DNA of 64,000 bases from Chloroflexota bacterium (GTDB taxonomy: Bacteria; Chloroflexota; Anaerolineae; Aggregatilineales; Phototrophicaceae): positions 122,633-186,632 of the forward strand of contig WTGC01000004.1 of the NCBI GenBank assembly GCA_011523705.1, read 5' to 3'. A model generated the notes under the pieces. It saw only the letters and a list, made by a program, of their open reading frames with translations, had not been told where the DNA came from and searched no databases. A program made the translations under genes and the position numbers. Positions 28,147 through 52,432 of the stretch are shown here, in pieces. How positions within the stretch are numbered: the stretch's first letter is position 1; each line of letters starts with the position of its first letter.

Positions 28147-28175
28147 TTGACAGGTTTTTGTCAATTGTCTACAAT
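28147..28175 (+). promoter_or_regulatory. Promoter with overlapping palindromic operator, upstream of ABC ATPase genes
   Basis: TTGACA (28147-28152) - 17 nt - TACAAT (28170-28175); palindrome ATTGTCTACAAT 28164-28175. Confidence 0.7.
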
Positions 28176-28208
28176 GCGACGCGATCCGCGAGAGGGCGAT
28201 TGCGCGAT

Positions 28209-29234
28209 ATGTCTGAAGAATTCAGCGATGTACTCGAACTGCGCGACCTCAGAACCTACTTTCATTTGCCCGAAGGCACGCTGAAGGCGGTTGATGGCGT
28301 CGACTTGACCATCGCTCCCCATCAGACCGTCGGCGTCATTGGCGAGTCTGGCTCCGGCAAAAGCGTCACCGCCCAATCCATCTTGCAAATAGTGCCGCCG
28401 CCGGGCGCGATCGAATCCGGCGAGATCATTCTGCGGCGCAAAGACGGCGACGCCGTCGATGTCGGCAAGCTCAATCCGCGCAGCCGGGCAATCCGCGCCA
28501 TTCGCGGCGCCGAAGTCTCGATGGTATTCCAGGAGCCGATGACCAGCCTCTCGCCGGTTCATACGATTGGCGCGCAAATTGTCGAAGCGATCTTGCTGCA
28601 TATCGAGCGTGACAAAAGGAAAGCCAGGCAGCTGGCGCTGGATATGATCAATCGCGTCGGTATCTCCAATCCCGAGCAGCGCTTTGATGAATATCCGCAC
28701 CAATTGTCAGGCGGGATGCGTCAGCGCGCGATGATCGCCATGGCGCTCTCTTGCAGCCCTTCCCTGCTCATCGCCGATGAACCGACCACCGCGCTTGACG
28801 TCACGGTACAGGCGCAAATTCTGGAATTGATGAAAGAATTACAGGCGCAGTTTGGCATGGCGATCATGTATATTACGCATGATTTGGGCGTCATCGCCGA
28901 AATCGCTGACGAAGTCAATGTCATGTACCTCGGCCGGGTGGTGGAGCGCGCTTCTACCGTGGAGCTATTCAAGAATCCGCTGCATCCGTACACGCAGCGA
29001 TTGCTCAAGTCCATTCCGCGTCTTGGCGGGCGCGGGCGGGGACGCCTCGACGCCATTCGCGGCAATGTGCCGGTGCCGATGAATCCGCCGCCGCAATGTG
29101 GCTTCGCCTCGCGCTGTGATGAATTCATCCGCGGCAAATGCGATGTGGCCGTGCCCGCGCTCGTCGACATGGGCCAGGACCACTACGTGCGCTGCTACCT
29201 GCACAGCGAAGAAAGCGAGCCGGTCTATGCCTGA
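28209..29234 (+). CDS. peptide/oligosaccharide-type ABC importer ATPase (DppD/OppD-like)
   Basis: GESGSGKSVTAQSIL, QLSGGMRQRAMIAMAL, C-terminal Cys-rich OppD motif (PPPQCGFASRCDEFIRGKCD); start ATG 28209. Confidence 0.92.
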   Translation: MSEEFSDVLELRDLRTYFHLPEGTLKAVDGVDLTIAPHQTVGVIGESGSGKSVTAQSILQIVPPPGAIESGEIILRRKDGDAVDVGKLNPRSRAIRAIRGAEVSMVFQEPMTSLSPVHTIGAQIVEAILLHIERDKRKARQLALDMINRVGISNPEQRFDEYPHQLSGGMRQRAMIAMALSCSPSLLIADEPTTALDVTVQAQILELMKELQAQFGMAIMYITHDLGVIAEIADEVNVMYLGRVVERASTVELFKNPLHPYTQRLLKSIPRLGGRGRGRLDAIRGNVPVPMNPPPQCGFASRCDEFIRGKCDVAVPALVDMGQDHYVRCYLHSEESEPVYA

Positions 29235-30273
29235 AGCGGATACGCCCACCAGGAAACAGATCGGCGATGTGCTGTTGGATGTCCGCGAACTCAAGAAGCA
29301 TTTTCCCATTGAGAAAGGCTTCTTTCGCAGCGTGTATGGCTACGTAAAGGCAGTAGATGGCGTCAGCTTCACGATTCGTGAAGGCGAGACATTCGGCTTG
29401 GTGGGGGAATCCGGCAGCGGCAAGACCACCTTGGGGCGCTGCATCGTGCGCGGCATTGAACCGACCGCGGGCGAAATATTGTTTCGTCTGCCCAATGGCA
29501 ACGAGGTTGATATCGCGGCGCTGGATAAGAAGGCGCTGCGCGACGTGCGCCAACACTTTCACATGATCTTTCAGGATCCCTATTCCTCGCTCGATCCGCG
29601 CATGTCGGTGCTCGATATAATTGCCGAGCCGATCCGCAACAATAAGCTCCTCTCGGACACCCGCGAAATACAAGACCGCGTGCGTGAACTGATGGACAAG
29701 GTGGGCTTGGATATCCAGCATCTCAACCGCTATCCCCATGCCTTTTCCGGCGGCCAGCGCCAACGCATCGGTATCGCCCGGTCGCTCGCGCCAAGTCCGC
29801 TGCTGATCGTTTGCGATGAGGCGGTCTCCGCGCTGGATGTTTCGATTCAAGCACAGATTCTCAACCTGCTTGAGGACTTGCAGGAGGAGTTCAACCTGAC
29901 CTTTCTGTTTATCGCCCACGATCTGTCCGTCGTGGAGCATATTTCCGATCGCGTCGGCGTGATGTATGTCGGGCAACTGGTTGAGCTGGCCGACACCGAA
30001 TCCCTGTTCACGTCGCCCAAGCATCCTTATACCGAGGCGCTTCTATCGGCGGTGCCGACAACGGACCCCGAGATCAAGATGGACAGGATCATTTTGCCCG
30101 GCGAAGTCGCCAATCCGGCCGCGCCGCCTTCGGGCTGTTATTTCCACCCGCGCTGCCGCTATGCGCAGGAGATTTGCGCGACTGAGGCGCCTGAATGGAC
30201 CCAAGTCGCGGAAGGTCATTTTGCCGCCTGCCATTTCGCCGATGAGCTGGCCCTGCGTGGGGTCGAAGAGTAG
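29227..30273 (+). CDS. peptide/oligosaccharide-type ABC importer ATPase (DppF/OppF-like)
   Basis: [49 protein letters not shown]; overlaps preceding gene by 8 nt. Confidence 0.92.
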
Positions 30274-30278
30274 CGCAG

Positions 30279-30641: not shown

Positions 30642-32432
30642 TCATTGCAACTTGACAATTGCCCACATATCCAGCGTTGGCAGGGAGACGATGGTTTCCG
30701 AACCGGCCGCGTCGCAATCGATCTCACGAGGCAATTCCCCGGGCGCGTAGAGCGTCGCGCGAGTGAACACCCGGTCCAGCAGGTCTCCGGCGATCGTCAA
30801 CTCGACATCGCGCAAGCTCTCATAGGCGTCCGACTGCAAGTCATAGTTGCTGTTTAATACATGACAGATGGCCGGCGCGCCAGGCTGATCCGGCATTTGA
30901 CGCAGCTGCACGCTGATGTTCTCAGCGCCGGCGACGCGGATGGCGCCCCCAACCCGGTCGAGCAGGTCGCTCGCGCCCGACCAAGTACAGAGTCGGTCAC
31001 CTGCAGACAATAATTTGCTTTCCTGTTCCTCCGTCAGGAACGACGGCTCAAATCGAACGACAGCGCGGTAAGGTGATAGGTCCGTATTCAGAAGGCGGTC
31101 CTCCACCCAGTCATCGCCGGCGACGATCACGTGAAAGGGAACATTGGCGCGGCTCAGGGCGAAGCAAGCTTCCGCCAAATCGGTCCGCGGCGCGCTGCGA
31201 TTCTGGCCCCCGAGATGCCCGCCGGTCAAGCGGTCGCCGAGATACTGCCGAACGGCGTTGTTGCTGAAGATCAGCGCGACTTTCGCGACCGATTCGTAGC
31301 CATCGAATAGTTCAGGATAATCACGAATGAAGTGATAAAGCGGCTCATAATCGCCCGTCTTGCTGTGATACCAACGGTCGGGCTCGCCAGCGTTGCGCAG
31401 CGTCCACATCTTGTCCGGCGCCATGAAGACATGCCCATAGGCGTAGGCTTGCGCGATCCACAGGCGAATATGCCCGGGGCGGTCGTTGAGGCGGCAGGGC
31501 TCGAAGGCGCGCGGCACACCCGTAATCGCCAGAAGCCGCCCCAGACCGTCCGCCAGTTTGAAGGTGTAAACGGGATCGGTCGGCAGGATCTCCTCTTCTG
31601 GCGGCAGATATTGCATCTCATTGGTGTAGAAGTCATGCGCGTCTACGGCGTACATGAATTCCGCCCAATAAAATGGCGAATTGGAACTCATCGGCACATC
31701 ACTGCTGAATTCGCGGGCGTAGCGCTTGAATTCGCGAAAGAGCGCGTTGACCTCTTGCCACTGGAAATCGATGTATTCGTTTGCCAGTGGAATCGCCGCC
31801 GGGAATGCCAGTATTTCCGCTCGATAGCGCTCGTCGGTGAAGCCACGCGCCAGCAGGAAGTCGCGATAATTGAATGACTCGAGATCGTCAATCTCCCAGA
31901 TTTCACGATCGGCAGCGTCAAGATGCGACTTAAGGTATTCGCGAAAGCCGGCCAGGCAATGCTCACAGAAGCAGCCGCCATAACGCGCGTTGAGCGAGGC
32001 GATCGTGGGAATCGCCGAATCGATCATCAGCCAGTCCGACCCCGCCTCCATGACTCGGCGCACTTGGTACATGAGGTAATGCCGATAGCCGGGCGCGTTG
32101 GTGCAGAAGAAATACGGCGGATGTCCCTTGTATCGATGCGCCCACCAGGTGATCGCGGGCCGGTCATTGAGATCGCGCACGGTCGATTCCATGAAATTGG
32201 AGTCGAAGTCGATCATGCCCATCCAATCCGCGTCCAACTCGACCCGCCCCTGAAACTTGACGCCGCAGCGATGCGCCTCATCGACATCGCGCATCATCTC
32301 TTCGTCCGGCGGCAGGCCGCGGCGGTCGGGCTCGGGCAGGAAGCCCCAGCCCAAACCAGTCGCGCGATATCGTCGGTAGACGTCCATGCTGCATGGACGA
32401 GTGATCAGCACATCTGATCGTTTCAAGGTCAT
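30642..32432 (-). CDS. putative TIM-barrel glycosidase-like protein of unassigned family (596 aa)
   Basis: WHRYKGHPPY..., 'RYGGCFCEHCLAGFREYL' typical of GH42/GHL-like barrels; located in the GH117/sulfatase operon. Confidence 0.5.
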   Translation of the reverse strand: MTLKRSDVLITRPCSMDVYRRYRATGLGWGFLPEPDRRGLPPDEEMMRDVDEAHRCGVKFQGRVELDADWMGMIDFDSNFMESTVRDLNDRPAITWWAHRYKGHPPYFFCTNAPGYRHYLMYQVRRVMEAGSDWLMIDSAIPTIASLNARYGGCFCEHCLAGFREYLKSHLDAADREIWEIDDLESFNYRDFLLARGFTDERYRAEILAFPAAIPLANEYIDFQWQEVNALFREFKRYAREFSSDVPMSSNSPFYWAEFMYAVDAHDFYTNEMQYLPPEEEILPTDPVYTFKLADGLGRLLAITGVPRAFEPCRLNDRPGHIRLWIAQAYAYGHVFMAPDKMWTLRNAGEPDRWYHSKTGDYEPLYHFIRDYPELFDGYESVAKVALIFSNNAVRQYLGDRLTGGHLGGQNRSAPRTDLAEACFALSRANVPFHVIVAGDDWVEDRLLNTDLSPYRAVVRFEPSFLTEEQESKLLSAGDRLCTWSGASDLLDRVGGAIRVAGAENISVQLRQMPDQPGAPAICHVLNSNYDLQSDAYESLRDVELTIAGDLLDRVFTRATLYAPGELPREIDCDAAGSETIVSLPTLDMWAIVKLQ

Positions 32433-32453: not shown

Positions 32454-34100
32454 CTAAACTTTCGTGACATAGACAAAATAGGCGCCCCTTCGTCGATCAC
32501 CGCCGTCATTGCTCAATTCAGTACGCAATTTGCGCAGCCCTGAATCAAGTTCCAAGTCGAAGGTCGCATGACAGTCTTCCCCCGACAGGGGCTTTGACCA
32601 CTCTGTATCGTCAACTTGCAGGCTGGCAGCCGACACGCCCATAGGTCGCTCAGCTTCGCGCGGATGCGTCCGCAGCTCGATTCTGTAGGGACCGGGCCGC
32701 GTCACATCAATCCACCAGAAGCCGTTGGCGTCGTAGGCGGGATCGTCTATCCAGCTTTGCCGCCAGGGAACGCGACCTTCCGTTGGATGCCAATCGCGCG
32801 CCGAGAGCAGCGTCGGATTCTCGCATTTGGTACCAACAGGAATCGCGATGGAATGGGAAAAACTGTCTTGCATCTCTTCCCAGAAAGCATCATAGTCCCG
32901 GCGCAGCGCCGCCACAACATGGGGGAATTCAGCGGAGACGTCGTTTTCCTGCGCCCGGTCGCGGTCCACATCGTAGAGTTCCTCGCCATTGACCAAGCGC
33001 CAGCGTCCGTCGAGCAGTGCCGTCTGATGCCACTTGCGCGGCTGGTCGCTTTGAAGCTGAATCACCAGCGAACGCTCGGGCAATTCGCATTCGTCGCCGC
33101 GCAGCAATTCAGCCAAGCTTAAACCATCAAAGGCCGGTTCGGTATCGCATTCAAGACCACAGATGTCAATCAGCGTCGGCAGTATATCAATGTGCGCCGT
33201 GAGTTGACGCACCTTGCGCTCGGCCGGCAGTTGCCCGGACCAACGGAAGAAAAAGTTCACCTGATGCCCGCCATCATAGACCGAGCCCTTTTTGCCCCGC
33301 AGACCGGCATTGTAGCCGTCGCCAGTCTCCGGATCGTAACCGGCGGCCGTGCCATGATCGGCGGTGAAGATGACCAGCGTGTCTTCATCGAGACTGAGTT
33401 GTCTCAGACGCGCGAACAAGCGGCCCATATTCTCGTCGAAATTGGCGATCATGCCATAGAACTTGGCGCGTTCTTCGGGCAAGCCCTGCGCCAAATAAGG
33501 CTCTGCATATTCGGCCGGCACGATATGCGGCGCGTGCATCGCATTCGGCGCCAGATAGACCAAGAAGGACGCTTCCCTGTGCGACTCGATGAAAGCGAGG
33601 GCGGCGTCAAAGAATACATCGGTGCAGTAGCCCTCGCAGCGGATGGGCTCGCCATTGTGAAAATAAACGTCGTCCACATAGCTGTTGCCCCAGTAGTCGG
33701 GCAGCTCGCCCACGCCGCCGCCGCGATGACAGAGCGATTCGTCGAAGCCGCGATACTGCGGGGCGAAGGGATAATTGTCGCCGAGATGCCACTTGCCGAA
33801 CAGGCCGGTGCGATAACCGTCCGCGGCGTAGACATCGGCCATGGTCACAGCCGCGGGATGCAGCAGATGACGCCCATGAATCACATGCCAAACGCCGTTG
33901 CGACAGGCATATTGCCCGGTCAGCAAGGCGGCGCGGGAAGGGGAACACAGCGGGTCGTGATGATGATTGTCCAACTGGACGCTCTCGCGCGCCATTTGAT
34001 CGAGATGAGGGGTCTTGAGAACGGGATTGCCATGATAGCCAATATCAGCGTAACCCTGATCGTCGGTGATGACGAAGATGACATTGGGCGGCCGCGTCAT
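32454..34100 (-). CDS. arylsulfatase-family (S1-type) sulfatase
   Basis: RPPNVIFVITDDQGYADIGYHG; formylglycine motif C-S-P-S-R in DPLCSPSRAALLTGQY; GKWHLGD; start 34100. Confidence 0.92.
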   Translation of the reverse strand: MTRPPNVIFVITDDQGYADIGYHGNPVLKTPHLDQMARESVQLDNHHHDPLCSPSRAALLTGQYACRNGVWHVIHGRHLLHPAAVTMADVYAADGYRTGLFGKWHLGDNYPFAPQYRGFDESLCHRGGGVGELPDYWGNSYVDDVYFHNGEPIRCEGYCTDVFFDAALAFIESHREASFLVYLAPNAMHAPHIVPAEYAEPYLAQGLPEERAKFYGMIANFDENMGRLFARLRQLSLDEDTLVIFTADHGTAAGYDPETGDGYNAGLRGKKGSVYDGGHQVNFFFRWSGQLPAERKVRQLTAHIDILPTLIDICGLECDTEPAFDGLSLAELLRGDECELPERSLVIQLQSDQPRKWHQTALLDGRWRLVNGEELYDVDRDRAQENDVSAEFPHVVAALRRDYDAFWEEMQDSFSHSIAIPVGTKCENPTLLSARDWHPTEGRVPWRQSWIDDPAYDANGFWWIDVTRPGPYRIELRTHPREAERPMGVSAASLQVDDTEWSKPLSGEDCHATFDLELDSGLRKLRTELSNDGGDRRRGAYFVYVTKV

Positions 34101-34126: not shown

Positions 34127-35212
34127 CTAGACCCAGCCCAGCGACTGATCGTGGCGCTCCCAGCGGATGAGGAAGTCCCAGGGTTCGTCGATGGTTGAGA
34201 TCCCAAGCGGATCCTGCCCTTGCCGCGCCGCATGCGGGCTCCACTGCGTGACATGGCTGAGCCCCCAGCTCAAGCCGGCGAGCGGCTCGCTGTTCGATTC
34301 TTCCGGAATGCGCAAGGCGCCCGCTGCTTGGGGCGGATCAATGATCGTCGCTTTCGGTTCAAAGTTGATGCCGTCGGCGGCGAACTGAATCGTATTCTTC
34401 TCCGGTCCGCAGCGGGTCAATAGGGCGCCGACGCCGCCAGCGTAATTCCATACCATCACCTCATGTCCGCTGTTGGTGATGGGATTGAGCGGTGATTTCT
34501 CGTAGGGACCCAGCGGATCATCGGCCATGGCGACGCCCCATTTGCTCTCCATATTGCTGTGGCCGATGCCTTCGCCTTTGAAGTAGAGCCAATAGCAACC
34601 CTCGCGGAAGAGCAGCGCCGGGTCGTGCACGCGCAAGCTGTCGAAGGTCCCCTGCGCCGTCGCTTCCAGCGGGTGAGCGCGATCATCAACCTCGCCCGAT
34701 GGATCCGGTTCCACTACCGGCGCTGGCGTTTTCGTCCAGGGACCATGCGGAGAATCAGCCCAAGCCAAGGCGATTGACTCCGGCGTGCTCCGCCAGGTTG
34801 GCGCTCTCGTCACCTGATAGACCAGAAAGAAACGACCGTCATGCGCCAGCACGTCGGGCGTAAAGATGCTGCGCTCGTCATAGCTGCCGGCCGGTCCGCG
34901 CTCGACAGCCGGACCCTGCTCGCTCCAATGATGGCCGTCGGTGGACGTGGCGTACCAGACATCGGTCAGGTCCCAGGGCATGGCCGGAATCACGTCGGTG
35001 GCGCGCTCGTGGCCGACCGCCGGGCAAGGGTGCGCTCCACGCGTATACCAGACGAAATAGAGGCCGTCAACTTCAATGATGCAGCTTGGATCGCGGCGGA
35101 CGATGCCCTTCTCATAGCCGAGGCCCGAGATCGTCATGTCTTGGAATTTGGCGAACCACGGATTGTCGGCGTCCCGCAATTGGAATCGTCGCATTGCTGC
35201 GCTAAGCGTCAT
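34127..35212 (-). CDS. GH117-like glycoside hydrolase (copy A)
   Basis: SAAMRR (SxAxxR), RRDPS, WDLTDVWYATS, VHDPAL, NPITNSGHE; five-bladed propeller pattern. Start 35212 (MTLSAAMRRF) or 35242. Confidence 0.8.
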   Translation of the reverse strand: MTLSAAMRRFQLRDADNPWFAKFQDMTISGLGYEKGIVRRDPSCIIEVDGLYFVWYTRGAHPCPAVGHERATDVIPAMPWDLTDVWYATSTDGHHWSEQGPAVERGPAGSYDERSIFTPDVLAHDGRFFLVYQVTRAPTWRSTPESIALAWADSPHGPWTKTPAPVVEPDPSGEVDDRAHPLEATAQGTFDSLRVHDPALLFREGCYWLYFKGEGIGHSNMESKWGVAMADDPLGPYEKSPLNPITNSGHEVMVWNYAGGVGALLTRCGPEKNTIQFAADGINFEPKATIIDPPQAAGALRIPEESNSEPLAGLSWGLSHVTQWSPHAARQGQDPLGISTIDEPWDFLIRWERHDQSLGWV

Positions 35213-35322: not shown

Positions 35323-36414
35323 TTAGATATAAGTACGGCGATGATGATCATGCTCCCAGCGAACCAGAAAATCCCAAGGCTCGTTAATTTCGGCCAGCGC
35401 CAGCGGATCATGCCCCTGCATGGTCAGGTGCGAGCTATGCGGGATTACATGGCTCAGTCCCCAGCTGAATCCCGAAAGCGGCTCTGTGTTGCATGCGTCA
35501 TCAATCCGCAGGGGTCCGGCGGCTTGCGGCGGGACGACAAGGGAAGACTTGATCTCAAAATTGACGCCGTCCGGCGCGAACTGAATGGTGTTTTTCTCCG
35601 GTCCGCAGCGATTGACCAAACCGGCAACGCCGCCATCGTATTGCCAGACCACGACTTCGTGGCCGCTGTTTGTAATCGGATTAAACGGAGACTTGGTGTA
35701 AGGACCGAAGGGTGAGTCGGCGGTAGCGACGCCCCATTTGGATTCCATGTGGTGATAGCCAATTCCTTCGCCCTTGTAATAGAGCCAGAATTTGCCTTCG
35801 CGATAAAGCAGCTCGGGGTCATGCACTTGCAGGCTGTCCCAGGCGCCCTTGACTGCCGCCTGCTCCGGAATTCCTTTTTCGTCGACTTCGCCGGAGGGAT
35901 CGGGTTCGAGGATGGGCGCCGGGCTTTTGGTCCAGGGTCCGGCCGGCGAATCAGACCAGGCGATAGCGATGGACTCGGGCGTGCAACGATAGTTGGGATG
36001 GCGCGCCACCTGATAGACGAGGCAATAAAGCCCGTCGTGCGCCAGGATGCCCGGGGTGAAGACGCCGCGTTCGTCATAAGCGCCAGGGGGACCGCGCTCC
36101 ACCGCCGGACCCTGCTCCTCCCAATGATGGCCGTCGGCCGAGGTGGCATACCAGACATCAGCCAAATCCCAGGGAGTCGCCGGCAGCTCTTTGGTCATTC
36201 GGTCAAAGCCAACCGGCGGGTGGGCATGGGCCGCGCGCGTATACCAGATGTAATAGCGGCCATCGATCGCCAGGATGGCGCTGGGGTCGCGGCGGACAAC
36301 GCCTCTTTCGTAGCCCAAGCCCGTTATCTTGCTGTATTTGAATTTGGCGAACCAGGGATTGTCCTTGTCTGGACCTTCAAATCGCCGCATGGCGGCGCTT
36401 CGTGGCATGTTCAT
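35323..36414 (-). CDS. GH117-like glycoside hydrolase (copy B)
   Basis: SAAMRR, RRDPS, WDLADVWYATS, VHDPELLY, NPITNSGHE; close paralog of copy A. Confidence 0.82.
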   Translation of the reverse strand: MNMPRSAAMRRFEGPDKDNPWFAKFKYSKITGLGYERGVVRRDPSAILAIDGRYYIWYTRAAHAHPPVGFDRMTKELPATPWDLADVWYATSADGHHWEEQGPAVERGPPGAYDERGVFTPGILAHDGLYCLVYQVARHPNYRCTPESIAIAWSDSPAGPWTKSPAPILEPDPSGEVDEKGIPEQAAVKGAWDSLQVHDPELLYREGKFWLYYKGEGIGYHHMESKWGVATADSPFGPYTKSPFNPITNSGHEVVVWQYDGGVAGLVNRCGPEKNTIQFAPDGVNFEIKSSLVVPPQAAGPLRIDDACNTEPLSGFSWGLSHVIPHSSHLTMQGHDPLALAEINEPWDFLVRWEHDHHRRTYI

Positions 36415-42046: not shown

Positions 42047-43042
42047 ATGAGAAGCTACGTTTTTCAACGCCTGATCTATATGATTTTCCTTTTGTGGCTG
42101 GTCTCGATCGTCACCTTTGTCGTCATTCAGCTGCCGCCAGGCGATTATCTCTCCACCTATATCAGCCGGCTTGAACAGGCGGGTCAAGATCTGAGCGACG
42201 AAGAAGTCGAGAATCTGCGCCGCCAATATGGCTTGGACCTGCCGCTATTCCTGCGTTACTTCAAATGGTTCGGGCAGGTACTGCAGGGCGAATTCGGCTT
42301 TTCTTTTGATTGGCAGCAACCAGTCAAAGATATCATCGGCGAGCGGCTGGCGCTGACATTCACGATCGCTATTCTCAGCGCCATCTTCACCTTCGCCGTC
42401 GCCATACCGATAGGCATTTACTCGGCGACGCATCAGTATTCCCTTGGCGATTACATCGTCTCCATCATCGGCTTCATTGGTCTGGCGATACCCAATTTCA
42501 TGCTGGCGCTCATCATGCTATACATCGCCTGGAAGAGTTACGAACTCAATTTGACCGGTTTGTTTTCGCCCGAGTATGTCTCCGCGCCCTGGAGTTGGGC
42601 GAAGCTTGGCGATCTGCTTCTGCATTTGCCGATTCCCATCATCGTGGTCGGCACGGCTGGCACCGCGGGCATGATTCGCGTGCTGCGCGGCACCTTGCTC
42701 GATGAGCTCAACAAACAATATGTGATCACAGCGCGCAGCAAAGGCGTCGGCGAAGTGAAGTTGCTCTTCAAGTACCCGGTGCGGGTCGCGCTCAACCCGA
42801 TCGTCAGCGGCTTGGCATGGCTCTTTCCTTCGCTGATCTCCGGCGGCACGATTACCGCGATCGTGCTGGGATTGCCCACCGCCGGACCGATGCTCTATCG
42901 CGCGCTGATTACGCAGGATACCTTCTTGACGGCAACGCTGCTGATGTTTGTGACAATCTTGACCGTTATCGGAACGACGGTATCCGATATCTTGCTAGTG
43001 GTGGTGGATCCGCGCATTCGCATGGAGCGCGCCGCCAACTGA
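42047..43042 (+). CDS. ABC importer permease (DppB-like)
   Basis: MRSYVFQRLIYMIFLLWLVSIVTFVVIQLPPGD; LPIPIIVVGTAGTAGMIRVLRGTLLDELNKQYVITARSKGVGE. Confidence 0.92.
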   Translation: MRSYVFQRLIYMIFLLWLVSIVTFVVIQLPPGDYLSTYISRLEQAGQDLSDEEVENLRRQYGLDLPLFLRYFKWFGQVLQGEFGFSFDWQQPVKDIIGERLALTFTIAILSAIFTFAVAIPIGIYSATHQYSLGDYIVSIIGFIGLAIPNFMLALIMLYIAWKSYELNLTGLFSPEYVSAPWSWAKLGDLLLHLPIPIIVVGTAGTAGMIRVLRGTLLDELNKQYVITARSKGVGEVKLLFKYPVRVALNPIVSGLAWLFPSLISGGTITAIVLGLPTAGPMLYRALITQDTFLTATLLMFVTILTVIGTTVSDILLVVVDPRIRMERAAN

Positions 43043-43051: not shown

Positions 43052-44200
43052 ATGATGCTGCGCCGTTTCGGCTTGAGCCGAGCAAAACCAGCTAAAGAAG
43101 CCGCCCAATTTGACGAGAGCTATTATCTGGCGTCGCAGTGGCAGCTGATCTGGCGCAAGTTCCGGCGGCATCGTCTGGCGATGATCTCGGCGCTGGTGAT
43201 CATCGTCCTCTACTCGCTGGCGATTTTCCCTGAGTTTTATTCCGTCAACGACCATCACAAGCGTCACGTCAAATATGCCAAAGCGCCGCCACATACGGTT
43301 CGCTTCGTCGACGATGAGGGCAATTTTCATCTGAATCCCTTCATTTATGACATCGTGCAAAAGCTGGATATGGATACGCTGAAGCGCAATTACAGCGAAG
43401 ACAGATCGAAGCGTTATCCCATCCGTTTCTTCGTCGAGGGCGAACCCTACCGGCTTCTCGGTCTAATCGACACCACGATTCATCTGATGGGCGTGGATGA
43501 GCCGGCAGTCTTCTTCCCATTCGGCACCGATGAATTAGGGCGCGACCTGTTTTCACGCACCATGCACGCGGCGCGAATATCGCTATCGATTGGCTTCCTC
43601 GGCATGGTCACCAGCTTCGTGCTCGGCTGTCTCATTGGTGGCGTGTCCGGCTATTTCGGCGGGTCGGTTGACATCATCGTGCAGCGCGTCATCGAATTTC
43701 TCGTTTCCATTCCCCATATCCCGCTAATCATGGCGCTTTCCGCCGCCTTCCCGCCGGAGTGGAGTTCCACGCAAGTTTATTTCGGCATTACCGTCGTCTT
43801 GGCCATTGTGAGTTGGCCGCCGTTGGCGCGCGCTGTGCGCGGCAAGCTGCTGGAACTGCGCGAAGCCGACTTTGTAATGGCGGCGCGGATATCCAATATG
43901 GGCGACATGGAGATCATCGTTAAACATCTCTTGCCCTCCTTCGCCAGCTTCCTGATTGTGGTGCTCAGCCTGGCAGTGCCCGGCATGATCCTGGCGGAGA
44001 CAGCTTTGAGCTTCCTGCAAATCGGCATTCGGCCGCCGGCTGTCAGCTGGGGCGTATTGCTGCAAGACGCCCAGAATATCCGCAGTCTGAGTCAGAGCCC
44101 CTGGCTGCTGATTCCGGGCTTGTTTGTCATCGCCACGGTGCTCGCCTTTAACTTTCTCGGAGACGGCTTGCGCGATGCCGCTGATCCCTACAAGCAGTAG
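43052..44200 (+). CDS. ABC importer permease (DppC-like) with long soluble insert after TM1
   Basis: FPFGTDELGRDLFSRTMHAARISLSIGF; WPPLARAVRGKLLELREADFVMAAR; NFLGDGLRDAADPYKQ. Confidence 0.92.
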   Translation: MMLRRFGLSRAKPAKEAAQFDESYYLASQWQLIWRKFRRHRLAMISALVIIVLYSLAIFPEFYSVNDHHKRHVKYAKAPPHTVRFVDDEGNFHLNPFIYDIVQKLDMDTLKRNYSEDRSKRYPIRFFVEGEPYRLLGLIDTTIHLMGVDEPAVFFPFGTDELGRDLFSRTMHAARISLSIGFLGMVTSFVLGCLIGGVSGYFGGSVDIIVQRVIEFLVSIPHIPLIMALSAAFPPEWSSTQVYFGITVVLAIVSWPPLARAVRGKLLELREADFVMAARISNMGDMEIIVKHLLPSFASFLIVVLSLAVPGMILAETALSFLQIGIRPPAVSWGVLLQDAQNIRSLSQSPWLLIPGLFVIATVLAFNFLGDGLRDAADPYKQ

Positions 44201-44296
44201 GCTTCCAATTGCCTTTCATCCGCGTGACATGCTTCAAATGCGCTGTAGTTTGTCGACGAAATCTGGCGCGATGCCCACTTGAGCGGAAGACAAGCG

Positions 44297-44905
44297 ATGC
44301 CGACCTTCGAAATCTTCAGGACACTGCCGGAGCAGATCGCGGCGCGACTGCAGCAAGACATCCTGGCGGGCCAGCTGCAACCGGGCGACCCATTGCGCGA
44401 GGTCGATCTGTCGGAACGATTCGGCGTGAGCCGCGGGCCGGTACGCGAAGCTTTTCGTCAGCTCGTGCAGCAGGGCTTGCTGGTGTTGGAGCCGAACAAA
44501 GGCGTACGCGTGGCGCCGAATCCCAGCGACGAGATGCGCCCGCTTGTTGTGCAATTGAGGCGTACCATCGAGGTCTTTGTGCTCGAGAGCATCTTCGACC
44601 GCATCACCGCCGACGACATTGCCGTCTGGGATGAGATTCTTGACGACATCAAATCCGCCTGCGAGTCGAATGACCTGAACGCGCTGACCGACCATGATTT
44701 GCGCTTTCACCAGGCGATTGTCAAAAGCCATGACGACCGCGATCTCTTCACCCTTTGGCAGCCAATAGCGATGCGAATGATGATGCAATACAATCGGCTG
44801 GACGATCTGATGGAGAGCTACCGCGAGCACAAGCGAATCCTGGACGCGATACGCGCCGGAGACCAATGGGCGGCAATCGAGGCGCTGTCCACCAATATTC
44901 AATAG
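44297..44905 (+). CDS. GntR-family (FadR/FCD subfamily) transcriptional regulator
   Basis: LPEQIAARLQQDILAGQLQPGDPLREVDLSERFGVSRGPVREAFRQLVQQGLLVLEPNKGVRV wHTH; helical FCD domain. Confidence 0.9.
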   Translation: MPTFEIFRTLPEQIAARLQQDILAGQLQPGDPLREVDLSERFGVSRGPVREAFRQLVQQGLLVLEPNKGVRVAPNPSDEMRPLVVQLRRTIEVFVLESIFDRITADDIAVWDEILDDIKSACESNDLNALTDHDLRFHQAIVKSHDDRDLFTLWQPIAMRMMMQYNRLDDLMESYREHKRILDAIRAGDQWAAIEALSTNIQ

Positions 44906-45016
44906 AGGACTTGCCGTCATCTCAGATTGCTTTTTAACGAGCCTCAGCTGGCTGAATTCGAGATTCGTCAAAACAATCTGATAAGCACACATATTTTGCA
45001 ACGAAGGAAAAACGAA

Positions 45017-46033
45017 ATGGCGCAAGCAGCCTATTACGAAGGCGACCGCAAGATTCGATTGGGCGCGTGCGAGCCAGTCCCTCCGGGCGCAGGCGAAGTG
45101 CAGCTGAAGATATCGCATTGCGGCATCTGTGGGACCGATTTGCATATTTTCCACGGCGCCATGGACGCGCGGGTGAAAATGCCCTTGGTCATGGGTCATG
45201 AAATGTCGGCTACCGTGCAGCGCCTGGGTGAAGGCGTCGAGGACTTTGAATTGGGCGACGAGGTTGTCGTCATGCCGCTGGCCCCTTGCGACGACTGCCC
45301 CGCTTGCGCCGCCGAGCACAGTCATATCTGCCACAACTTGAACTTCCTCGGCATCGATACGCCGGGCGCCTTCCAAAGTTATTGGACGGTTCCCGCATAC
45401 ACTTTGCACCGCATACCGCCGAATTTGTCGTTGAAGCACGCCGCGCTGATCGAGCCGCTGGCGGTGGCTTGCCATGATGTTCGTCTCGCTAACGTGCGCC
45501 CGGGCGATCATGCAGTCGTGCTTGGCGGCGGACCGATCGGCATGCTGGTGGCGCTGGTGGCGCGGGAAGCCGGCGCGGATGTGATCGTCTCCGAGATTAA
45601 CCCCTATCGCGTCGAACTCGCCAGCAATCTAGGCTTTGAGGCGATCAATCCAAGCGAGACCGATTTGATCGAACTGGTCATGCGGCGGACGAAGGGAAAG
45701 GGCGCCGACATCGTCTTTGAAGTTTCGGGTTCGCAAGCGGGCGCCGACATCATGACGGAATTGCTGCGGACGCGGGGGCTGGCGGTGGTGGTGGCGATCT
45801 TCGCGCAGAAGCCGCAAATCGACCTTTTCCGTTTCTTCTGGCGCGAGCTTCGTTTGCAAGGCGTCCGCGTTTACGAGTCGCAAGACTTCGCCGATGCGAT
45901 CGCGCTGGCCGCAGCGGGCGCCCTGCCCCTGGATGAGCTCATCACCGATATCCGTCCGTTGAGCGGGCTGCGCTCCGGCTTCGAGGATATGGAAAAAGGC
46001 GGCCGCGCAATGAAGATTCTCTTGGAGATTTGA
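45017..46033 (+). CDS. zinc-dependent medium-chain dehydrogenase
   Basis: CGICGTDLHIFHGAM, GHEMSATVQRLGEGVEDFELGDEVVV, LGGGPIGMLVALVAREAGA; start ATG 45017. Confidence 0.88.
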   Translation: MAQAAYYEGDRKIRLGACEPVPPGAGEVQLKISHCGICGTDLHIFHGAMDARVKMPLVMGHEMSATVQRLGEGVEDFELGDEVVVMPLAPCDDCPACAAEHSHICHNLNFLGIDTPGAFQSYWTVPAYTLHRIPPNLSLKHAALIEPLAVACHDVRLANVRPGDHAVVLGGGPIGMLVALVAREAGADVIVSEINPYRVELASNLGFEAINPSETDLIELVMRRTKGKGADIVFEVSGSQAGADIMTELLRTRGLAVVVAIFAQKPQIDLFRFFWRELRLQGVRVYESQDFADAIALAAAGALPLDELITDIRPLSGLRSGFEDMEKGGRAMKILLEI

Positions 46034-46804
46034 ATGAACATCATGGAACAGTTTCGGCTTGACGGCAAAGTCGCGCTGGTCACTGGCGCGCGCCGCGGCA
46101 TTGGCAAAGCGATGGCGCTTGGCCTGGCGGAAGCGGGCGCCGATATCATCGCCGTCAGCGCCAATCTTGAAGCGGGAGGAAGCGAGATTGAGAAGGAGGT
46201 CACAGCGCTAGGACGCGCCTTCGCCGGCTACCGCTGCGACTTTTCCAATCGTGAGGATCTATACCGCTTCATCAAAGATGTAACCGCCGATCATCCCACC
46301 ATTGACATCCTGGTCAATAACGCCGGCATGGTATTGCGGGAAGCGGCGGAACGGCACAGCGACGAATTTTGGGACAAGGTCATCGACACGAACCTCAGCG
46401 CGCAATTTGTACTTAGCCGCGAAATTGGGGTAGGGATGCTTGCGCGCGGCAGCGGCAAAATCATCTTCACCGCCTCCCTGCTCACCTTTCAAGGCGGCAT
46501 TACTGTGCCCGGCTACGCGGCCAGCAAAGGCGGCGTAGGACAATTGACCAAGGCGCTCGCCAATGAATGGGCCGGCCGCGGCGTGCAGGTGAACGCGATT
46601 GCGCCTGGTTACGTGCGCACCGACGTCACCGAAGCGCTGCAAAACGACCCTGAGCGCTATCGATCCATCCTGGAGCGGATACCGGCTGGGCGCTGGGGCG
46701 AAGTCGACGACTTCAAGGGACCGGCGGTCTTCCTCGCCTCAGCCGCCTCCGACTTCGTCAACGGCGAGATTCTGGTGGTCGACGGCGGCTGGATGGGACG
46801 CTGA
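46034..46804 (+). CDS. short-chain dehydrogenase, KduD-like (2-keto-3-deoxy-sugar-acid 5-dehydrogenase type)
   Basis: VALVTGARRGIGKAMALGLAEAGADI, NNAGMV, YAASKGGV, WAGRGVQVNAIAPGYVRTDVTEAL. Confidence 0.8.
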   Translation: MNIMEQFRLDGKVALVTGARRGIGKAMALGLAEAGADIIAVSANLEAGGSEIEKEVTALGRAFAGYRCDFSNREDLYRFIKDVTADHPTIDILVNNAGMVLREAAERHSDEFWDKVIDTNLSAQFVLSREIGVGMLARGSGKIIFTASLLTFQGGITVPGYAASKGGVGQLTKALANEWAGRGVQVNAIAPGYVRTDVTEALQNDPERYRSILERIPAGRWGEVDDFKGPAVFLASAASDFVNGEILVVDGGWMGR

Positions 46805-46825: not shown

Positions 46826-48061
46826 TCAGGCGCCGATGGTCGGGCGGTCCATTTGGGCTTGCTCCGCCAGGATGCGCGCGCGCCATTCATCAGGCAACCG
46901 CACCTGGGGCTGAAACCAGGACGCTTCATGCCAATGCAGATTGCTGCCCTTGAATTCGGGCCGCTCGCTATCGCGCGACAGGGCGCAATCGAATCGCACA
47001 ATGTACAGACCGCTATACGAATCGGGCGTTTGGGGAATGATGTGGCTTAGCCCCCAGGTGACGCCACGTCCGTCGCCATTGTCGGCGAAAGCGTCCGGAC
47101 AGAAGGGGCCGGGCGCGTGAGGCGAATGCTGAACGTGCGATTTCGGTACGAAGTTTAGGCCATCCGGCGCGAATTGCACCGTGTCTTTCTCCGGACCATC
47201 CTGGATGAGCAAGGCGGCAATGCCCGATTCATAGGGCCAGAGCATGGTCTCGTGCCCGGAATTTGTCACCGGGTTCAGTTCAGACTTGATGTAGGGACCT
47301 TCGGGGTGATCGGAAATGGCGACGCCTTGCGCCCGCAATAAGTTGCCGGGCGATTTGTCCGCCGGCGAGCCTTTGTAATACACCCAGATTTTGCCCTGAT
47401 AGACCAAGGGATAAGGATCGTGAATGGCGCAGCTGTCCCATGCGCCTTCCGCGCCCTGCTCCACGACCGGGCGTTCCAGCCGCGTCCAGGGGCCATCGGG
47501 CGAGTCCGACCAAGCCATGCTGACATTCACGCAGTCGTTCTGCCGCCACATCGTCGTGAAGCACTGATAGTAGAGATAGTAGCGCCCGCCGTAGATGAGA
47601 ATATCGGGTGTCGAGAGCGAGCGGTCGCCATAGTTGCCTTTGGGCGCGCGCGGCACCGCCACCCCCTGCTCGACCCAATTGAAGCCGTCCTTTGACGTAG
47701 CGTAGCAGATGTCCGCCAGATCCCAGTCGACGATCGGCGTCTGATCATCGCCTTGGTCGATGTTGAAACGCCCAACCGGCGCCCGCTCCGTCCGCCGGCG
47801 CGTATACCAGACGTAATAGGTATCGTTGATTTTTAGCACCTTGGACGGATCGCGGCGCGACACAGACAATTCGGAATCGTCTTTGCCGATGCCGCTGACC
47901 GGCGAATACTTGAAGACGGTATAAAATGGATTCCCTGGATCTTGCCTGGGCGTCCACATGTCATAGAGGCGTTCCATCGCCGCGCTCAGTGGACGATCGG
48001 TCGGTTTTTCCAGCGGCAGTCGACCGGGAAATGCGGCTCGCTCTCGTCTGTCTTCGCTCAT
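46826..48061 (-). CDS. GH117-like glycoside hydrolase (copy C)
   Basis: RPLSAAMERLYD (SxAxxR), SVSRRDPSKVLKI, WDLADICYATS, IHDPYPLVYQGKIWVYYKG, NPVTNSGHETMLW; AGGAGG upstream of 48061. Confidence 0.85.
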   Translation of the reverse strand: MSEDRRERAAFPGRLPLEKPTDRPLSAAMERLYDMWTPRQDPGNPFYTVFKYSPVSGIGKDDSELSVSRRDPSKVLKINDTYYVWYTRRRTERAPVGRFNIDQGDDQTPIVDWDLADICYATSKDGFNWVEQGVAVPRAPKGNYGDRSLSTPDILIYGGRYYLYYQCFTTMWRQNDCVNVSMAWSDSPDGPWTRLERPVVEQGAEGAWDSCAIHDPYPLVYQGKIWVYYKGSPADKSPGNLLRAQGVAISDHPEGPYIKSELNPVTNSGHETMLWPYESGIAALLIQDGPEKDTVQFAPDGLNFVPKSHVQHSPHAPGPFCPDAFADNGDGRGVTWGLSHIIPQTPDSYSGLYIVRFDCALSRDSERPEFKGSNLHWHEASWFQPQVRLPDEWRARILAEQAQMDRPTIGA

Positions 48062-48101
48062 CATTCCTCCTGAACCAGGTTTGCGAATCGACACGCAAAA
48101 A

Positions 48102-48368: not shown

Positions 48369-49943
48369 ATGATCACCGCGGATTACATCGTGGTCGGCGC
48401 TGGCTCGGCTGGAGCGGCGGTCGCGAGCCGCCTCAGCGAAGACGATACCTGCTCGGTGGCGCTGCTCGAAGCTGGCGGACCCGACAGCAATCCAAACATT
48501 CGCATACCGGCGCGCTTCTCCGAGCTGTTCCACAGCGAATACGACTGGGATTACCAGACCCTGCCTCAGCCCGGGCTCAACAATCGGCGGGAATACGTGC
48601 CGCGTGGCAAGGTCTTTGGCGGCACCAGTTCAATGAATGCCATGGTTTATCAGCGCGGGCACCCATCGGATTACGACGGCTGGGCGGCACGCGAAAACGA
48701 GGGCTGGGCGTACCAGGACGTGCTGCCCTTCTTCCGCAAAATGCAGCATCAGGAACGCGGGGAATCCGAGCATCACGGCGTCGGCGGACCGATCAACGTC
48801 GCCGACCCGCAAGATCCGAATCCGCTCAGTCTGGCTTTCGTCGAAGCGGCGCTCGAGCTGGGATACAAGAGCAACGCCGACTTCAATGACGGCGAGCAAG
48901 AAGGCTTCGGCGTCTACCAGGTGACGCAGAAACGGGGTCAGCGGCAAAGCACAGCCTTGGGCTATTTGCGACCGGCGCTGCAACGTGAAAACTTCGCCGC
49001 GCTGCCCTATGCTCAAGTCACAAAACTCATCATCGAGAACAGTCGGTGCACGGGCTTAAAGTATTTTCACGACGGCGAACTCAAAACGGCGCGCGCGAAT
49101 CAGGAAGTCATCATCTGCGGCGGCGCGATTAACTCGGCTCAGCTGTTGCTGCTTTCCGGCATCGGACCGGCCGATCAACTCACCGAATTCGACATTCCGC
49201 TGGCGATGGACTTGCCCGGCGTTGGTCAAAACTTGATGGACCATATACAGGTCCCACTCGCTTATCATTGCCTAAAGCCGGTCAGCCTGGTCGGCAAAGA
49301 CGCGCCTGAGCAAGTTCGACTTTATCAAGATGAGCGCATAGGACTGCTGACTTCAAATCTCGGCGAGTCTGGCGGCTTCGTAAAGCTCAATCCCAATGCG
49401 CCGGCGCCCGAATTGCAGTACCACTTTGGTCCAGACTGGTTCGTCCGCCATGGCTTCGAAACGCCCGCCGGGCATGGATTCACGATACTGGTGGGACTGG
49501 TGGGCACGAAGAGCGCCGGCGAGCTCAAGCTGCTTTCCGCTGATCCCTTTGCGCCACCTTCCATCGACTTCGCTTGTCTCGAACACGATGACGATGTGCA
49601 GGTGCTTCTGGAAGGGCTCCATCTTGGTCGGCAGATCGCGGCGGCCTCCCCTTTCGATCCCTTTAGAGGCGACGAGTTCCTGCCCGGTGAGCAGGTGACA
49701 GCTGAGGAAGAACTCATTCACTTCATTCGCGAATTCGCCACGACAATCTATCATCCGACTTGCAGCTGCCGCATGGGGCGCGACCCACAGGCGGTGGTGG
49801 ACGAGCGCCTCCGCGTGCACGGTATTGCGGGCCTGCGCATCGCCGACGCCTCGATTATGCCGCATATCATCAACGCGAATACAAATGCGCCCTGCATCAT
49901 GATCGGCGAGAAAGCGGCCGCCATGATCAGGGAGGACAGGTAA
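48369..49943 (+). CDS. GMC-family FAD oxidoreductase
   Basis: MITADYIVVGAGSAGAAVASRLSED; GKVFGGTSSMNAMVYQRG; GAINSAQLLLLSGIGP; C-terminal HPTCSCRMG...NANTNAPCIMIGEKAA. Confidence 0.92.
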   Translation: MITADYIVVGAGSAGAAVASRLSEDDTCSVALLEAGGPDSNPNIRIPARFSELFHSEYDWDYQTLPQPGLNNRREYVPRGKVFGGTSSMNAMVYQRGHPSDYDGWAARENEGWAYQDVLPFFRKMQHQERGESEHHGVGGPINVADPQDPNPLSLAFVEAALELGYKSNADFNDGEQEGFGVYQVTQKRGQRQSTALGYLRPALQRENFAALPYAQVTKLIIENSRCTGLKYFHDGELKTARANQEVIICGGAINSAQLLLLSGIGPADQLTEFDIPLAMDLPGVGQNLMDHIQVPLAYHCLKPVSLVGKDAPEQVRLYQDERIGLLTSNLGESGGFVKLNPNAPAPELQYHFGPDWFVRHGFETPAGHGFTILVGLVGTKSAGELKLLSADPFAPPSIDFACLEHDDDVQVLLEGLHLGRQIAAASPFDPFRGDEFLPGEQVTAEEELIHFIREFATTIYHPTCSCRMGRDPQAVVDERLRVHGIAGLRIADASIMPHIINANTNAPCIMIGEKAAAMIREDR

Positions 49944-49945
49944 CG

Positions 49946-52432
49946 ATGAGAAAATTCAGCGATAATAGACCTCGCCTCCCGGGCGAACCGAGCGAACAGA
50001 AGCCAAGCGATCGCCCGCTCAGCGCCGCCCACGCGCGCCTGTACGACAAATGGGGCATTTATCAGGACTCGACCAACGAGTTTTATACGACCTTCAAGTA
50101 CAGCAAGATCAGCGGCATCGGGAAAGAAACGGGTGTCTCTCGGCGCGATCCTACGACAGTTTTGCGCATCGACGGCACTTACTATGTATGGTACACCCGC
50201 CGTCAGACCGACCATGACCGCGACCACCGGAACAAGCCGCCCCAGCGCGAGCAAACTTGGGATACGCCAGTCTTCGATTGGGACCTGGCGGAGATCTGGT
50301 ACGCCACATCTGACGATGGCTTCAACTGGACGGAACAAGGCGTCGCCGTCAAGCGCGGACCCGATGACACTTATGACGGGCGTTCTGTTTTCACGCCCGA
50401 TGTGCTGATGACCGGCGCCGGCTTCTACTTGTATTACCAGGCTGTTGATTACCCCTATCGGACGCGGACGCGCAATACAATCGGCATGTCCTTTTCAAAG
50501 ACGCCCCACGGTCCCTGGCAGCGCGCCGAAAGACCGGTGCTGGAGCCAGGCGCGCCGGGCGAGTGGCTGGGCGCTGATGATTCCGACGAGGTCCGCCGCT
50601 ATGGCGCCTGGGACAGCCACAAGGTGCACGATCCCTTTATTCTCGTCCGCGACGGCAAGTACTGGCTCTACTACAAGGGCCAACCGATGGGCTGGACGAC
50701 CAAATACTCGCGAGGCATCGGCTGGGGCGTGGCGATCGCGGACAAACCCGAGGGACCCTTCATCAAATCGCCGCTGAATCCGGTCACCAACAGCGGCCAC
50801 GAAACCTGCCTTTTCCCCTATGGCGAAGGCCTGCTCGCCATCTGCGGACATGATGGACCGGAGAAAGACACCGTTCAATTCGCCCCCGACGGGCTCAACT
50901 TCGACGTGGTCGCCCATGTCAATCTGCCGCCGCTTGCCGCCGGTCCCTTCGCGCCTGATTCGTATTGCGACACACAGGACGGCGCCGGCATCATCTGGGG
51001 CTTGTCGCATATCGCCACTGAAGAGATGAAAACCGGCAATTCTTATATCGTCCGCTTCGACTGCAACCTGCGCCGGGATTTCGAGCGGCCCGGCTTTCGC
51101 GGGAGCAATATTCGTTTCCCGGAGGAGGTTTACTTCTCGCCCGATCTGGCGCTGAACGAAGACAATATGCAGGACCTGGTCTATGCCAGCGAGCCGGAAC
51201 GACCAGAGGAAGCGCGACCTGCCGGACCCATCAGCAAGGCGATGGAGCGCGTTTACGACACCTACGGCTTGTACAAAGACGCGCAGAGCGAATTCTTCAG
51301 CGCCTTTCGCTACGCGCCCGTCAGCGGAATTGGGAAGGAGCCAGGCGTCACGCGGCGCGATCCATCCAAAGTCATTCAGGCGGACGGCGTCTTCTACGTC
51401 TGGTATTCGCGGCGGCAGACCGACGAGCGCTGGCTGGGGATTTCGCGCGCCAGCGAGACCAGACCCGCCTGGGATTGGGACATGGCTGATATCTGGTACG
51501 CCACATCGGGCGACGGCTTCCACTGGAAAGAACGCGGGCCGGCCGTGCAACGAGGTCAGCCGGGATCATTCGACGATCGGTCGGTGTTCACACCCGATAT
51601 TCTGGTTCTCGACGGCAAATACTATCTCTACTATCAGGTGATTCAGGGCGTCTGGATGCACCGGGCTATTCATCAGATTGCCATGGCTTGGTCGGATAGG
51701 CCGGACGGACCCTGGACGAAGCTGCCTGCGCCCGTCTTGCGCACCGGCCCGCGAGGCAACTTCGTCGGCGAGGAGGACGACGCCGATGCGATAGACCGCT
51801 TCGGCGATTGGGATTCGCACAAGCTGCACGACCCCTTTGTCTTGATATACCGCGGCCGGATTTGGCTCTATTACAAAGGCGTGCAATTTGGCCGCACATA
51901 CCGTCATGACCTGGGCATTGGCTGGGGCGTCGCCACCGCCGACGATCCGCGTGGTCCCTTTGTCAAATCACCTTTGAACCCGCTGACCAATAGCGGTCAT
52001 GAGACATTTCTTTATCCCTTCCGCGGGGGAATCGCCGCCATTACCAGCCACGAAGGTCCGGAAAAGAATACGGTGCAGTTTGCGCCGGACGGTTTGAATT
52101 TCGAGGTTGTTGGCAAGGTATCGGCGCCCCCGGTCGCAGCTGGACCCTTTGTGCCCGATGCCTTCAGCGACAGCGGCGATGGGCGCGGCGTAAACTGGGG
52201 GCTGGCGCATATCCAGCATGGACACGACGAACGCCTGGCGAACGGCTACCTCGTTCGCTTTGACTGCAACCTCAGCCGAGATAGGCGGCGCGCCGACTTT
52301 TATCGCGCTTGGAATTACCGATTTCCCGAATCCGTCTACTTCAGCAATGATTTCAGATTGACGGATGAAGAGAAGGCGGAAGCGATTCTGCTGATGTCGA
52401 GCATCGACGAAGATACCAGGCCGCTTGCGTGA
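49946..52432 (+). CDS. Tandem double GH117-like protein (two complete domains in one polypeptide, copies D1 and D2)
   Basis: Each half has SxAxxR (SAAHAR; SKAMER), SRRDPT/TRRDPS, WDLAEIWYATS/WDMADIWYATS, KVHDPF/KLHDPF, NPVTNSGHE/NPLTNSGHE and C-terminal YIVRFDCNL/YLVRFDCNL. Confidence 0.88.
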   Translation: MRKFSDNRPRLPGEPSEQKPSDRPLSAAHARLYDKWGIYQDSTNEFYTTFKYSKISGIGKETGVSRRDPTTVLRIDGTYYVWYTRRQTDHDRDHRNKPPQREQTWDTPVFDWDLAEIWYATSDDGFNWTEQGVAVKRGPDDTYDGRSVFTPDVLMTGAGFYLYYQAVDYPYRTRTRNTIGMSFSKTPHGPWQRAERPVLEPGAPGEWLGADDSDEVRRYGAWDSHKVHDPFILVRDGKYWLYYKGQPMGWTTKYSRGIGWGVAIADKPEGPFIKSPLNPVTNSGHETCLFPYGEGLLAICGHDGPEKDTVQFAPDGLNFDVVAHVNLPPLAAGPFAPDSYCDTQDGAGIIWGLSHIATEEMKTGNSYIVRFDCNLRRDFERPGFRGSNIRFPEEVYFSPDLALNEDNMQDLVYASEPERPEEARPAGPISKAMERVYDTYGLYKDAQSEFFSAFRYAPVSGIGKEPGVTRRDPSKVIQADGVFYVWYSRRQTDERWLGISRASETRPAWDWDMADIWYATSGDGFHWKERGPAVQRGQPGSFDDRSVFTPDILVLDGKYYLYYQVIQGVWMHRAIHQIAMAWSDRPDGPWTKLPAPVLRTGPRGNFVGEEDDADAIDRFGDWDSHKLHDPFVLIYRGRIWLYYKGVQFGRTYRHDLGIGWGVATADDPRGPFVKSPLNPLTNSGHETFLYPFRGGIAAITSHEGPEKNTVQFAPDGLNFEVVGKVSAPPVAAGPFVPDAFSDSGDGRGVNWGLAHIQHGHDERLANGYLVRFDCNLSRDRRRADFYRAWNYRFPESVYFSNDFRLTDEEKAEAILLMSSIDEDTRPLA

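Follow-up and report, generated by a model that had tools for sequence, protein, structure and literature searches.

A GH117 locus conserved in sponge-associated Anaerolineae that probably encodes import and catabolism of oligosaccharides containing 3,6-anhydro-L-galactose

We have analyzed a 64,000-nucleotide stretch of the genome of a Chloroflexota bacterium (contig WTGC01000004.1, positions 122,633 to 186,632; hereafter the window), taken from an assembly of 4.7 Mb in 246 contigs with an estimated completeness of ~96%. Between positions 28143 and 52432 of the window lies a cluster of genes for glycoside hydrolases (GH) of family GH117, a further glycosidase, a sulfatase, an ATP-binding cassette (ABC) importer, a transcriptional regulator and several candidate enzymes for the catabolism of 3,6-anhydro-L-galactose (AHG). 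The original prediction, made from the letters of the window alone, saw here a system for scavenging sulfated agar- or porphyran-like galactans, and all of the genes that it listed are present close to where it had placed them.

The locus is kept in a genus of Chloroflexota, and its named relatives are sponge-associated to the extent that we have traced them. Among the sampled genomes of the class, the GH117 set occurs in 10 of 11 of the same genus (this one included) and in one sister genus. Scanning named genomes, we obtained 28 loci in metagenome-assembled genomes (MAGs) of Chloroflexota and Anaerolineae with a shared gene order: the ATPases, the GH96-like glycosidase, sulfatase, GH117a, GH117b, solute-binding proteins, cycloisomerase, permeases, GntR regulator, Zn-dehydrogenase, KduD and GH117c. 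Some of these have one solute-binding protein or one of the GH117a/b pair; the GH96-like gene is lacking in L048, L051, L059 and L068, and is a fragment in L058. Bin20 (MPMG; L063) derives from the sponge Aplysina aerophoba (PMC5649159), and we read the bin prefixes COS, RHO and APA as standing for Coscinoderma, Rhopaloeides and Aplysina, the host sponges in PMC8163846. In a search of open-licence papers, none that names GH117 together with sponges concerned sponge symbionts.

Five GH117 domains are encoded in four open reading frames (ORFs). GH117a (34127–35212), GH117b (35323–36414) and GH117c (46826–48064) lie on the minus strand, and a two-domain protein on the plus strand comprises GH117d (49946–51130) and GH117e (51131–52432). 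Their predicted place in the family was borne out. GH117b matches solved structures with E-values of about 1e-88 to 1e-94 (SdNABH 3r4y 7.5e-94, BuGH117 1.3e-91, BpGH117 3.7e-89, AhgA 3p2n 2.4e-88), and GH117e matches 3p2n at 8e-88 for residues 510–824. GH117a and GH117d were assigned by homology. A profile of all five domains matches the solved GH117 structures at 1e-106 to 1e-119, and the homology spans the five-bladed propeller. Pfam and NCBIfam returned no model named GH117 for the locus proteins, giving matches to the GH43/GH32 clan only. GH117c is nearest to Zobellia Zg3597 and Zg3615 (4u6d, 4.6e-113; 4u6b, 2.8e-100), ahead of the classical neoagarobiose hydrolases (4ak5, 5e-72). In this genome the GH117 domains above E 1e-20 are confined to the locus. 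Elsewhere, in another Anaerolineae family (L183, G603), divergent GH117-like genes are paired with sulfatases beside a distant enolase-superfamily gene, an arrangement common to several genomes (L030–L036).

We number residues as in BpGH117, with H302 anchored by the sequence of the 4ak6 mutant. All five domains and all the sponge homologs retain D90, D245, K260, H302 and E303, among which are the general base D90 and the general acid H302 with E303. Asp320 completes a His/Asp dyad, in which a proton is shared between it and His302, the acid (PMC11574756). At this position GH117a and GH117b have cysteine, as do 28 of 28 sponge homologs of the a group and 15 of 15 of the b group (43/43), and GH117b has glycine in place of Glu167. 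GH117e has glutamate, found in 11 of 11 homologs of its group. Asp320 is retained in GH117c and GH117d and in their groups (n = 4 and n = 10, respectively), and outside the sponge lineage the position is aspartate in 44/47 and 9/10 sequences. Loss of Asp320 lowers the claim that GH117a, b and e would act exactly like BpGH117, while membership of the family as judged from sequence is unaffected. On the same basis the five GH117 domains are not equivalent. All are predicted to have alpha-1,3-(3,6-anhydro)-L-galactosidase activity, and the differences in active site and in closest relatives suggest that the proteins divide labor, probably among different oligosaccharides or sulfation states.

The protein of 596 amino acids encoded at 30642–32432 on the minus strand had been described as a glycosidase without a family. 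Profile comparison now identifies it as a divergent homolog of the catalytic domain of GH96 alpha-agarase. A profile of 18 homologs matches alpha-agarase 9m0b with E 2e-50 across residues 18–595, and also matches Catenovulum and Agaribacter ORFs of 1261–1457 residues (E 6e-55 to 1.5e-58). The catalytic residues of the alpha-agarase Cm-AGA, determined by mutagenesis, are Asp994 and Glu1129, 135 residues apart (PMC11311870). Residues 323 and 458 of 9m0b have the same spacing, and the implied numbering offset of 671 also accommodates five docking residues; we have therefore equated the two pairs, on the strength of this inferred numbering. Their equivalents align with D138 and E272 in the window protein, the predicted catalytic pair, and are invariant across every sequence compared, a distant third group included. 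That third group, from another Anaerolineae family (L161, L162 and L163), comprises proteins of ~500 amino acids that are 26–27% identical to the window protein; the genes of L162 and L163 have enolase-superfamily neighbors, and no GH117 was seen near them. The GH96-like enzyme was matched in just 4 of 38 other GH117-bearing genomes (three Catenovulum and one Agaribacter) and was not found on plasmids. A structural model of the protein had a mean predicted local distance difference test score of 59 and was set aside for fold searching.

Identity to GH96 is ~25%, there is a weak resemblance to GH42 beta-galactosidase, and no beta-galactosidase was found in the locus. The enzyme might then act on another linkage, such as a beta-galactosidic one, and fill that gap. 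This is a tentative alternative that we think rather unlikely, given that the homology to the catalytic domain of GH96 spans the full length, that both catalytic acids are present and that the gene lies among the alpha-1,3-acting GH117s. The preferred prediction is an enzyme with the function of an alpha-agarase or an origin from one.

The gene at 40718–41920 (minus strand) encodes an enolase-superfamily protein resembling 3,6-anhydro-L-galactonate cycloisomerase. It matches 2ovl (1e-126, 423 bits), a Streptomyces coelicolor protein that is presumably SCO3480, and the Vibrio enzyme VejACI (5xd7; 1e-120, 406 bits), compared with 199 bits for the next family (2pp0, 1e-57). The known cycloisomerases are thus its closest relatives, ahead of the other subgroups of enolases, and it is co-located with GH117 and AHG genes. 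A Zn-dependent dehydrogenase, assigned by Pfam (45017–46033, plus strand; relatives adjoining KduD in GH117 loci of other phyla are 45–59% identical), and a KduD-like short-chain dehydrogenase/reductase (SDR; 46034–46804, plus strand; TIGR01832 KduD 1e-92, under the curated cut-off) are candidates for the 5-dehydrogenase of 2-keto-3-deoxy-L-galactonate (KDGal) and the 2,5-diketo-3-deoxy reductase giving 2-keto-3-deoxy-D-gluconate (D-KDG). Relatives of all three occur together in eleven GH117 loci outside the Chloroflexota, including those of Agaribacter, Alteromonas, Paenibacillus soyae, Fulvivirga and Dyadobacter, with identities of 47–53% for the cycloisomerase, 47–59% for the Zn-dehydrogenase and 65–72% for KduD; several further loci hold one or two. 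Other SDRs in those GH117 loci score just 27–37% to the KduD-like protein. The three genes adjoin GH117 in proven or probable agar degraders.

By the published agar pathway, a Zn-dehydrogenase/KduD pair would turn KDGal into D-KDG via a 2,5-diketo intermediate. The pair in the locus points to such a C5 epimerization, and not to a route that ends at KDGal. The original prediction had the route stop there; its passage from AHG toward KDG stands, by homology and shared neighborhoods, and the end-point would need revision. Of the genes looked for in the rest of the genome, Eda, the aldolase for 2-keto-3-deoxy-6-phosphogluconate, was found above its curated cut-off. The 22 PfkB genes yielded no clear KDG kinase, none of those scanned reaching a KDG-kinase cut-off, and a dedicated AHG dehydrogenase was not found.

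Pfam matches give an Opp/Dpp-type importer, with two oligo_HPY ATPases, OppD/DppD-like (28143–29234) and OppF/DppF-like (29098–30273), and two permeases, OppB-like (42047–43042) and OppC-like (43052–44200), all on the plus strand. The two SBP_bac_5 solute-binding proteins are encoded on the minus strand (36485–38485 and 38566–40563), and the nearest structures to the first are 5ipw and 7ver (SPH1118), followed by the alpha-galactoside-binding 6epy. The prediction of an ABC importer standing where SusCD would be expected is thus supported. A simple hydropathy check, not SignalP, shows strongly hydrophobic N-termini on both solute-binding proteins, making signal peptides likely, and found none on the hydrolases, the sulfatase or the pathway enzymes. 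Import would therefore precede desulfation and hydrolysis. A GntR/FCD regulator (44279–44905, plus strand; GntR 9e-20, FCD 8e-19) completes the set.

A locus in another Anaerolineae family (L179) contains the importer at 66–73% identity (ATPases, permeases and solute-binding protein), together with the cycloisomerase, Zn-dehydrogenase and KduD. Both ATPases, which are kept in the sponge-lineage loci, have counterparts there, the first at 73%, and the second solute-binding protein (66%) has its counterpart beside GH117 and cycloisomerase. From this gene content we infer that importer and pathway belong together, and it is well supported that AHG catabolism is fed by an oligopeptide-type ABC importer. 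L179 holds one GH117 with a canonical active site (L025 in the residue alignment) and a GH16 that is 57% identical to annotated beta-agarases on plasmids of the human gut bacteria Bacteroides uniformis and Phocaeicola vulgatus. A family-by-family search of the genome of the window recognized no GH16 beta-agarase-like gene; the GH16 that it does contain was rejected as an agarase, being beta-glucanase-like. This suggests that the sponge lineage is without an endo-agarase that its relative has, and the cell would then scavenge fragments made by others, in keeping with the lifestyle originally predicted.

The S1 sulfatase (32454–34100, minus strand) has a CSPSR motif and matches Pfam Sulfatase at 1e-55. 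Its nearest structure is the exo-4S-kappa-carrageenan sulfatase 6prm, and its best PDB matches are of the carrageenan S1_19 type (1e-44 to 1e-47). Relatives with 40–42% identity over the full length adjoin GH117 in the Saprospiraceae-type loci L100, L102 and L105. The predicted S1-type sulfatase is present, but in sequence it resembles the S1_19-type carrageenan sulfatases and not a demonstrated agar or porphyran sulfatase. In a Polaribacter MAG (L111), two genes of the GH29 alpha-L-fucosidase family lie next to a GH117 gene and to a sulfatase gene whose product is 38% identical to that of the window; this set hints at porphyran-like material without being decisive.

The likeness to enzymes acting on kappa- and iota-carrageenan raises the possibility that the substrate is carrageenan, with the sulfatase taking galactose 4-O-sulfate and other enzymes releasing 3,6-anhydro-D-galactose. 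We regard this as very improbable. To our knowledge GH117 is L-specific in every characterized case, and the Zn-dehydrogenase/KduD pair suits L-KDGal. Moreover, we saw no gene for GH127 or GH129 in the locus, and these two families are what defines the carrageenan locus of Zobellia (PMC5698469).

Taking these features together, we consider it probable (about 0.74) that the locus is a catabolic regulon of sponge-associated Anaerolineae for AHG-containing, probably sulfated agar-type, oligosaccharides. In the mechanism that we propose, the two secreted solute-binding proteins would capture oligosaccharides for import by the Opp-type transporter. In the cytoplasm the sulfatase would strip sulfate, and the GH117 and GH96-like enzymes would cleave AHG-alpha-1,3-Gal bonds. 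The AHG would be oxidized at C1, and the resulting 3,6-anhydro-L-galactonate would be opened by the cycloisomerase to KDGal, which the Zn-dehydrogenase and KduD-like reductase would convert through the 2,5-diketo intermediate to D-KDG. A KDG kinase and the Eda aldolase, from elsewhere in the genome, would then yield pyruvate and glyceraldehyde-3-phosphate, with GntR controlling expression. The simplest source of the glycan is red-algal detritus taken up by the sponge, although the data do not decide between this and the sponge matrix.

A number of observations weigh against this interpretation. The His/Asp dyad is complete only in GH117c and d, and not in GH117a, b and e. Cycloisomerase-like proteins of ~50% identity also occur on many plasmids, rhizobial ones included, that have no known tie to agar; the enzyme alone would therefore not prove AHG catabolism, and it is the combination of genes that carries the argument. 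For the beta-galactosidase absent from the locus there are three weak GH2 matches elsewhere in the genome. No dedicated sulfatase maturation enzyme was recognized, both matches to the formylglycine-generating enzyme (FGE) family looking non-dedicated. We know of no sponge that makes AHG or an AHG-like sugar, a point that also counts against a glycan from the sponge matrix. Finally, a dedicated AHG dehydrogenase of the aldehyde dehydrogenase (ALDH) family was not found in this and the same-genus genomes (34 searched), the best ALDHs of which are ~28–37% identical to that of the Agaribacter GH117 operon. As a separate observation, the protein of L129 (G000:C145:22783-23466) has an FGE-sulfatase-type domain behind a TIR-like N-terminus, and seems closer to a defense or signaling protein than to a sulfatase-maturing enzyme.

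Within the AHG pathway, oxidation at C1 might fall to an FAD-dependent glucose-methanol-choline (GMC) oxidoreductase, assigned by Pfam and NCBIfam (48369–49943, plus strand), in place of an NAD(P)-dependent AHG dehydrogenase. The GMC family oxidizes alcohols and hydrated aldehydes. Where the loci of this genus and its sister genus reach far enough, GH117c or GH117d-e has a GMC gene as neighbor. Loci with GH117 in other phyla gave no GMC match at E 1e-10 and often carry an ALDH instead. Against this candidate AHG oxidase, its nearest structures, choline dehydrogenase and alcohol oxidases, are generic, L179 has neither an ALDH nor a GMC match, and a generic ALDH of the genome could perform the step. 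The assignment is a guess, and on balance an unlikely one.

The genus in which the locus is conserved counts sponge-derived MAGs among its named relatives, and the substrate might instead be sulfated polysaccharides made by the sponge itself. The GH117s would then act on host-matrix residues, L-galactose or related ones, and the enolase-superfamily enzyme on another aldonate. The fixed active-site change in GH117a and b would fit such a role. Slaby et al. 2017 (PMC5649159) propose use of sponge-matrix polysaccharides for clusters of arylsulfatase, ABC and dehydrogenase genes in a symbiont guild that includes bin20. Yet the set of cycloisomerase, Zn-dehydrogenase and KduD is common to GH117 loci of marine agarolytic genera, and pathway and importer recur in an Anaerolineae locus equipped with a beta-agarase-like GH16. 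We therefore hold a host-matrix substrate to be improbable. Similarly low odds attach to a sponge-symbiont pathway whose substrate, a sulfated anhydro-galactan or L-galactan, belongs to the holobiont itself; in it a GH117 subfamily with a Cys-for-Asp dyad would work with a new cytoplasmic GH96-related family adapted to this glycan. Catabolism of agar-type AHG oligosaccharides remains our preferred interpretation.

Other genes surround the locus. GalT is confirmed at 16948–17985 on the minus strand, where it had been placed near 16.9 kb, and 20153–22804 encodes an 883-residue protein with an MGH1-like glycoside hydrolase domain (PF22422). Adjoining the locus at 52454–54025 is a gene whose product, a membrane protein, weakly matches a GDSL-type hydrolase domain and is ~52–86% identical in some same-genus loci. 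An ORF at 44237–45511 (minus strand) was dropped as spurious; it has no family match and overlaps, on the opposite strand, the GntR gene and part of the gene for the Zn-dehydrogenase.

Sulfated polysaccharides are a presumed food of sponge-associated Chloroflexota, but their identity is unsettled; the locus names AHG as a candidate sugar. A connection between sponge microbes and red-algal matter could emerge from it, or a new host glycan. It would bring the use of agar-type sugars through an ABC importer into the Chloroflexota, add a small branch of cytoplasmic enzymes close to the GH96 alpha-agarases, of which few have been sampled, and provide a natural Asp-to-Cys substitution in an unusual catalytic dyad. 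The new points are the GH96-like enzyme, the change of Asp320 to cysteine in GH117a/b, the closeness of GH117c to Zg3597 and Zg3615 and the failure of the searches to find a dedicated AHG dehydrogenase.

The importer and several enzymes of the locus have not been seen together in known agar-eating bacteria. The agar locus of B. uniformis NP1 (PMC5849685) likewise has GH117 enzymes for an agar-type substrate, but it relies on SusCD import, GH16 and GH86 endo-agarases and GH2; here there is an Opp-type ABC importer, no recognized endo-agarase, an added GH96-like enzyme, a sulfatase and five GH117 domains. A B. uniformis plasmid carries a cycloisomerase relative (46%) with aldA adjoining. The AHG pathways of S. 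coelicolor (SCO3486/SCO3480; PMC9706016) and Vibrio sp. EJY3 share the 3,6-anhydro-L-galactonate cycloisomerase step, differing in that here no dedicated NAD(P)-dependent AHG dehydrogenase was found and a Zn-dehydrogenase and KduD are added.

The GH96 alpha-agarases (Cm-AGA, PMC11311870; 9m0b) have a catalytic domain homologous end to end with the enzyme of the locus, and the equivalents of Asp994 and Glu1129 are kept. At ~25% identity, the latter is 596 amino acids long against ~1400, is without the N-terminal modules and has no visible signal peptide. With GH117 clade A (BpGH117, SdNABH, AhgA) and with Zg3597/Zg3615 the locus domains share the fold family, the base D90, the acid H302 and E303; they differ in having Cys (a, b) or Glu (e) for Asp320, mostly Asp for Glu167, a two-domain GH117d-e protein and no signal peptide that we could see. 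The carrageenan regulon of Zobellia galactanivorans (PMC5698469) follows the same logic of sulfatase, anhydrogalactosidase and cycloisomerase, applied there to a D-series sugar, with GH127/GH129, SusCD and a final kinase and aldolase for 2-keto-3-deoxy-D-galactonate.

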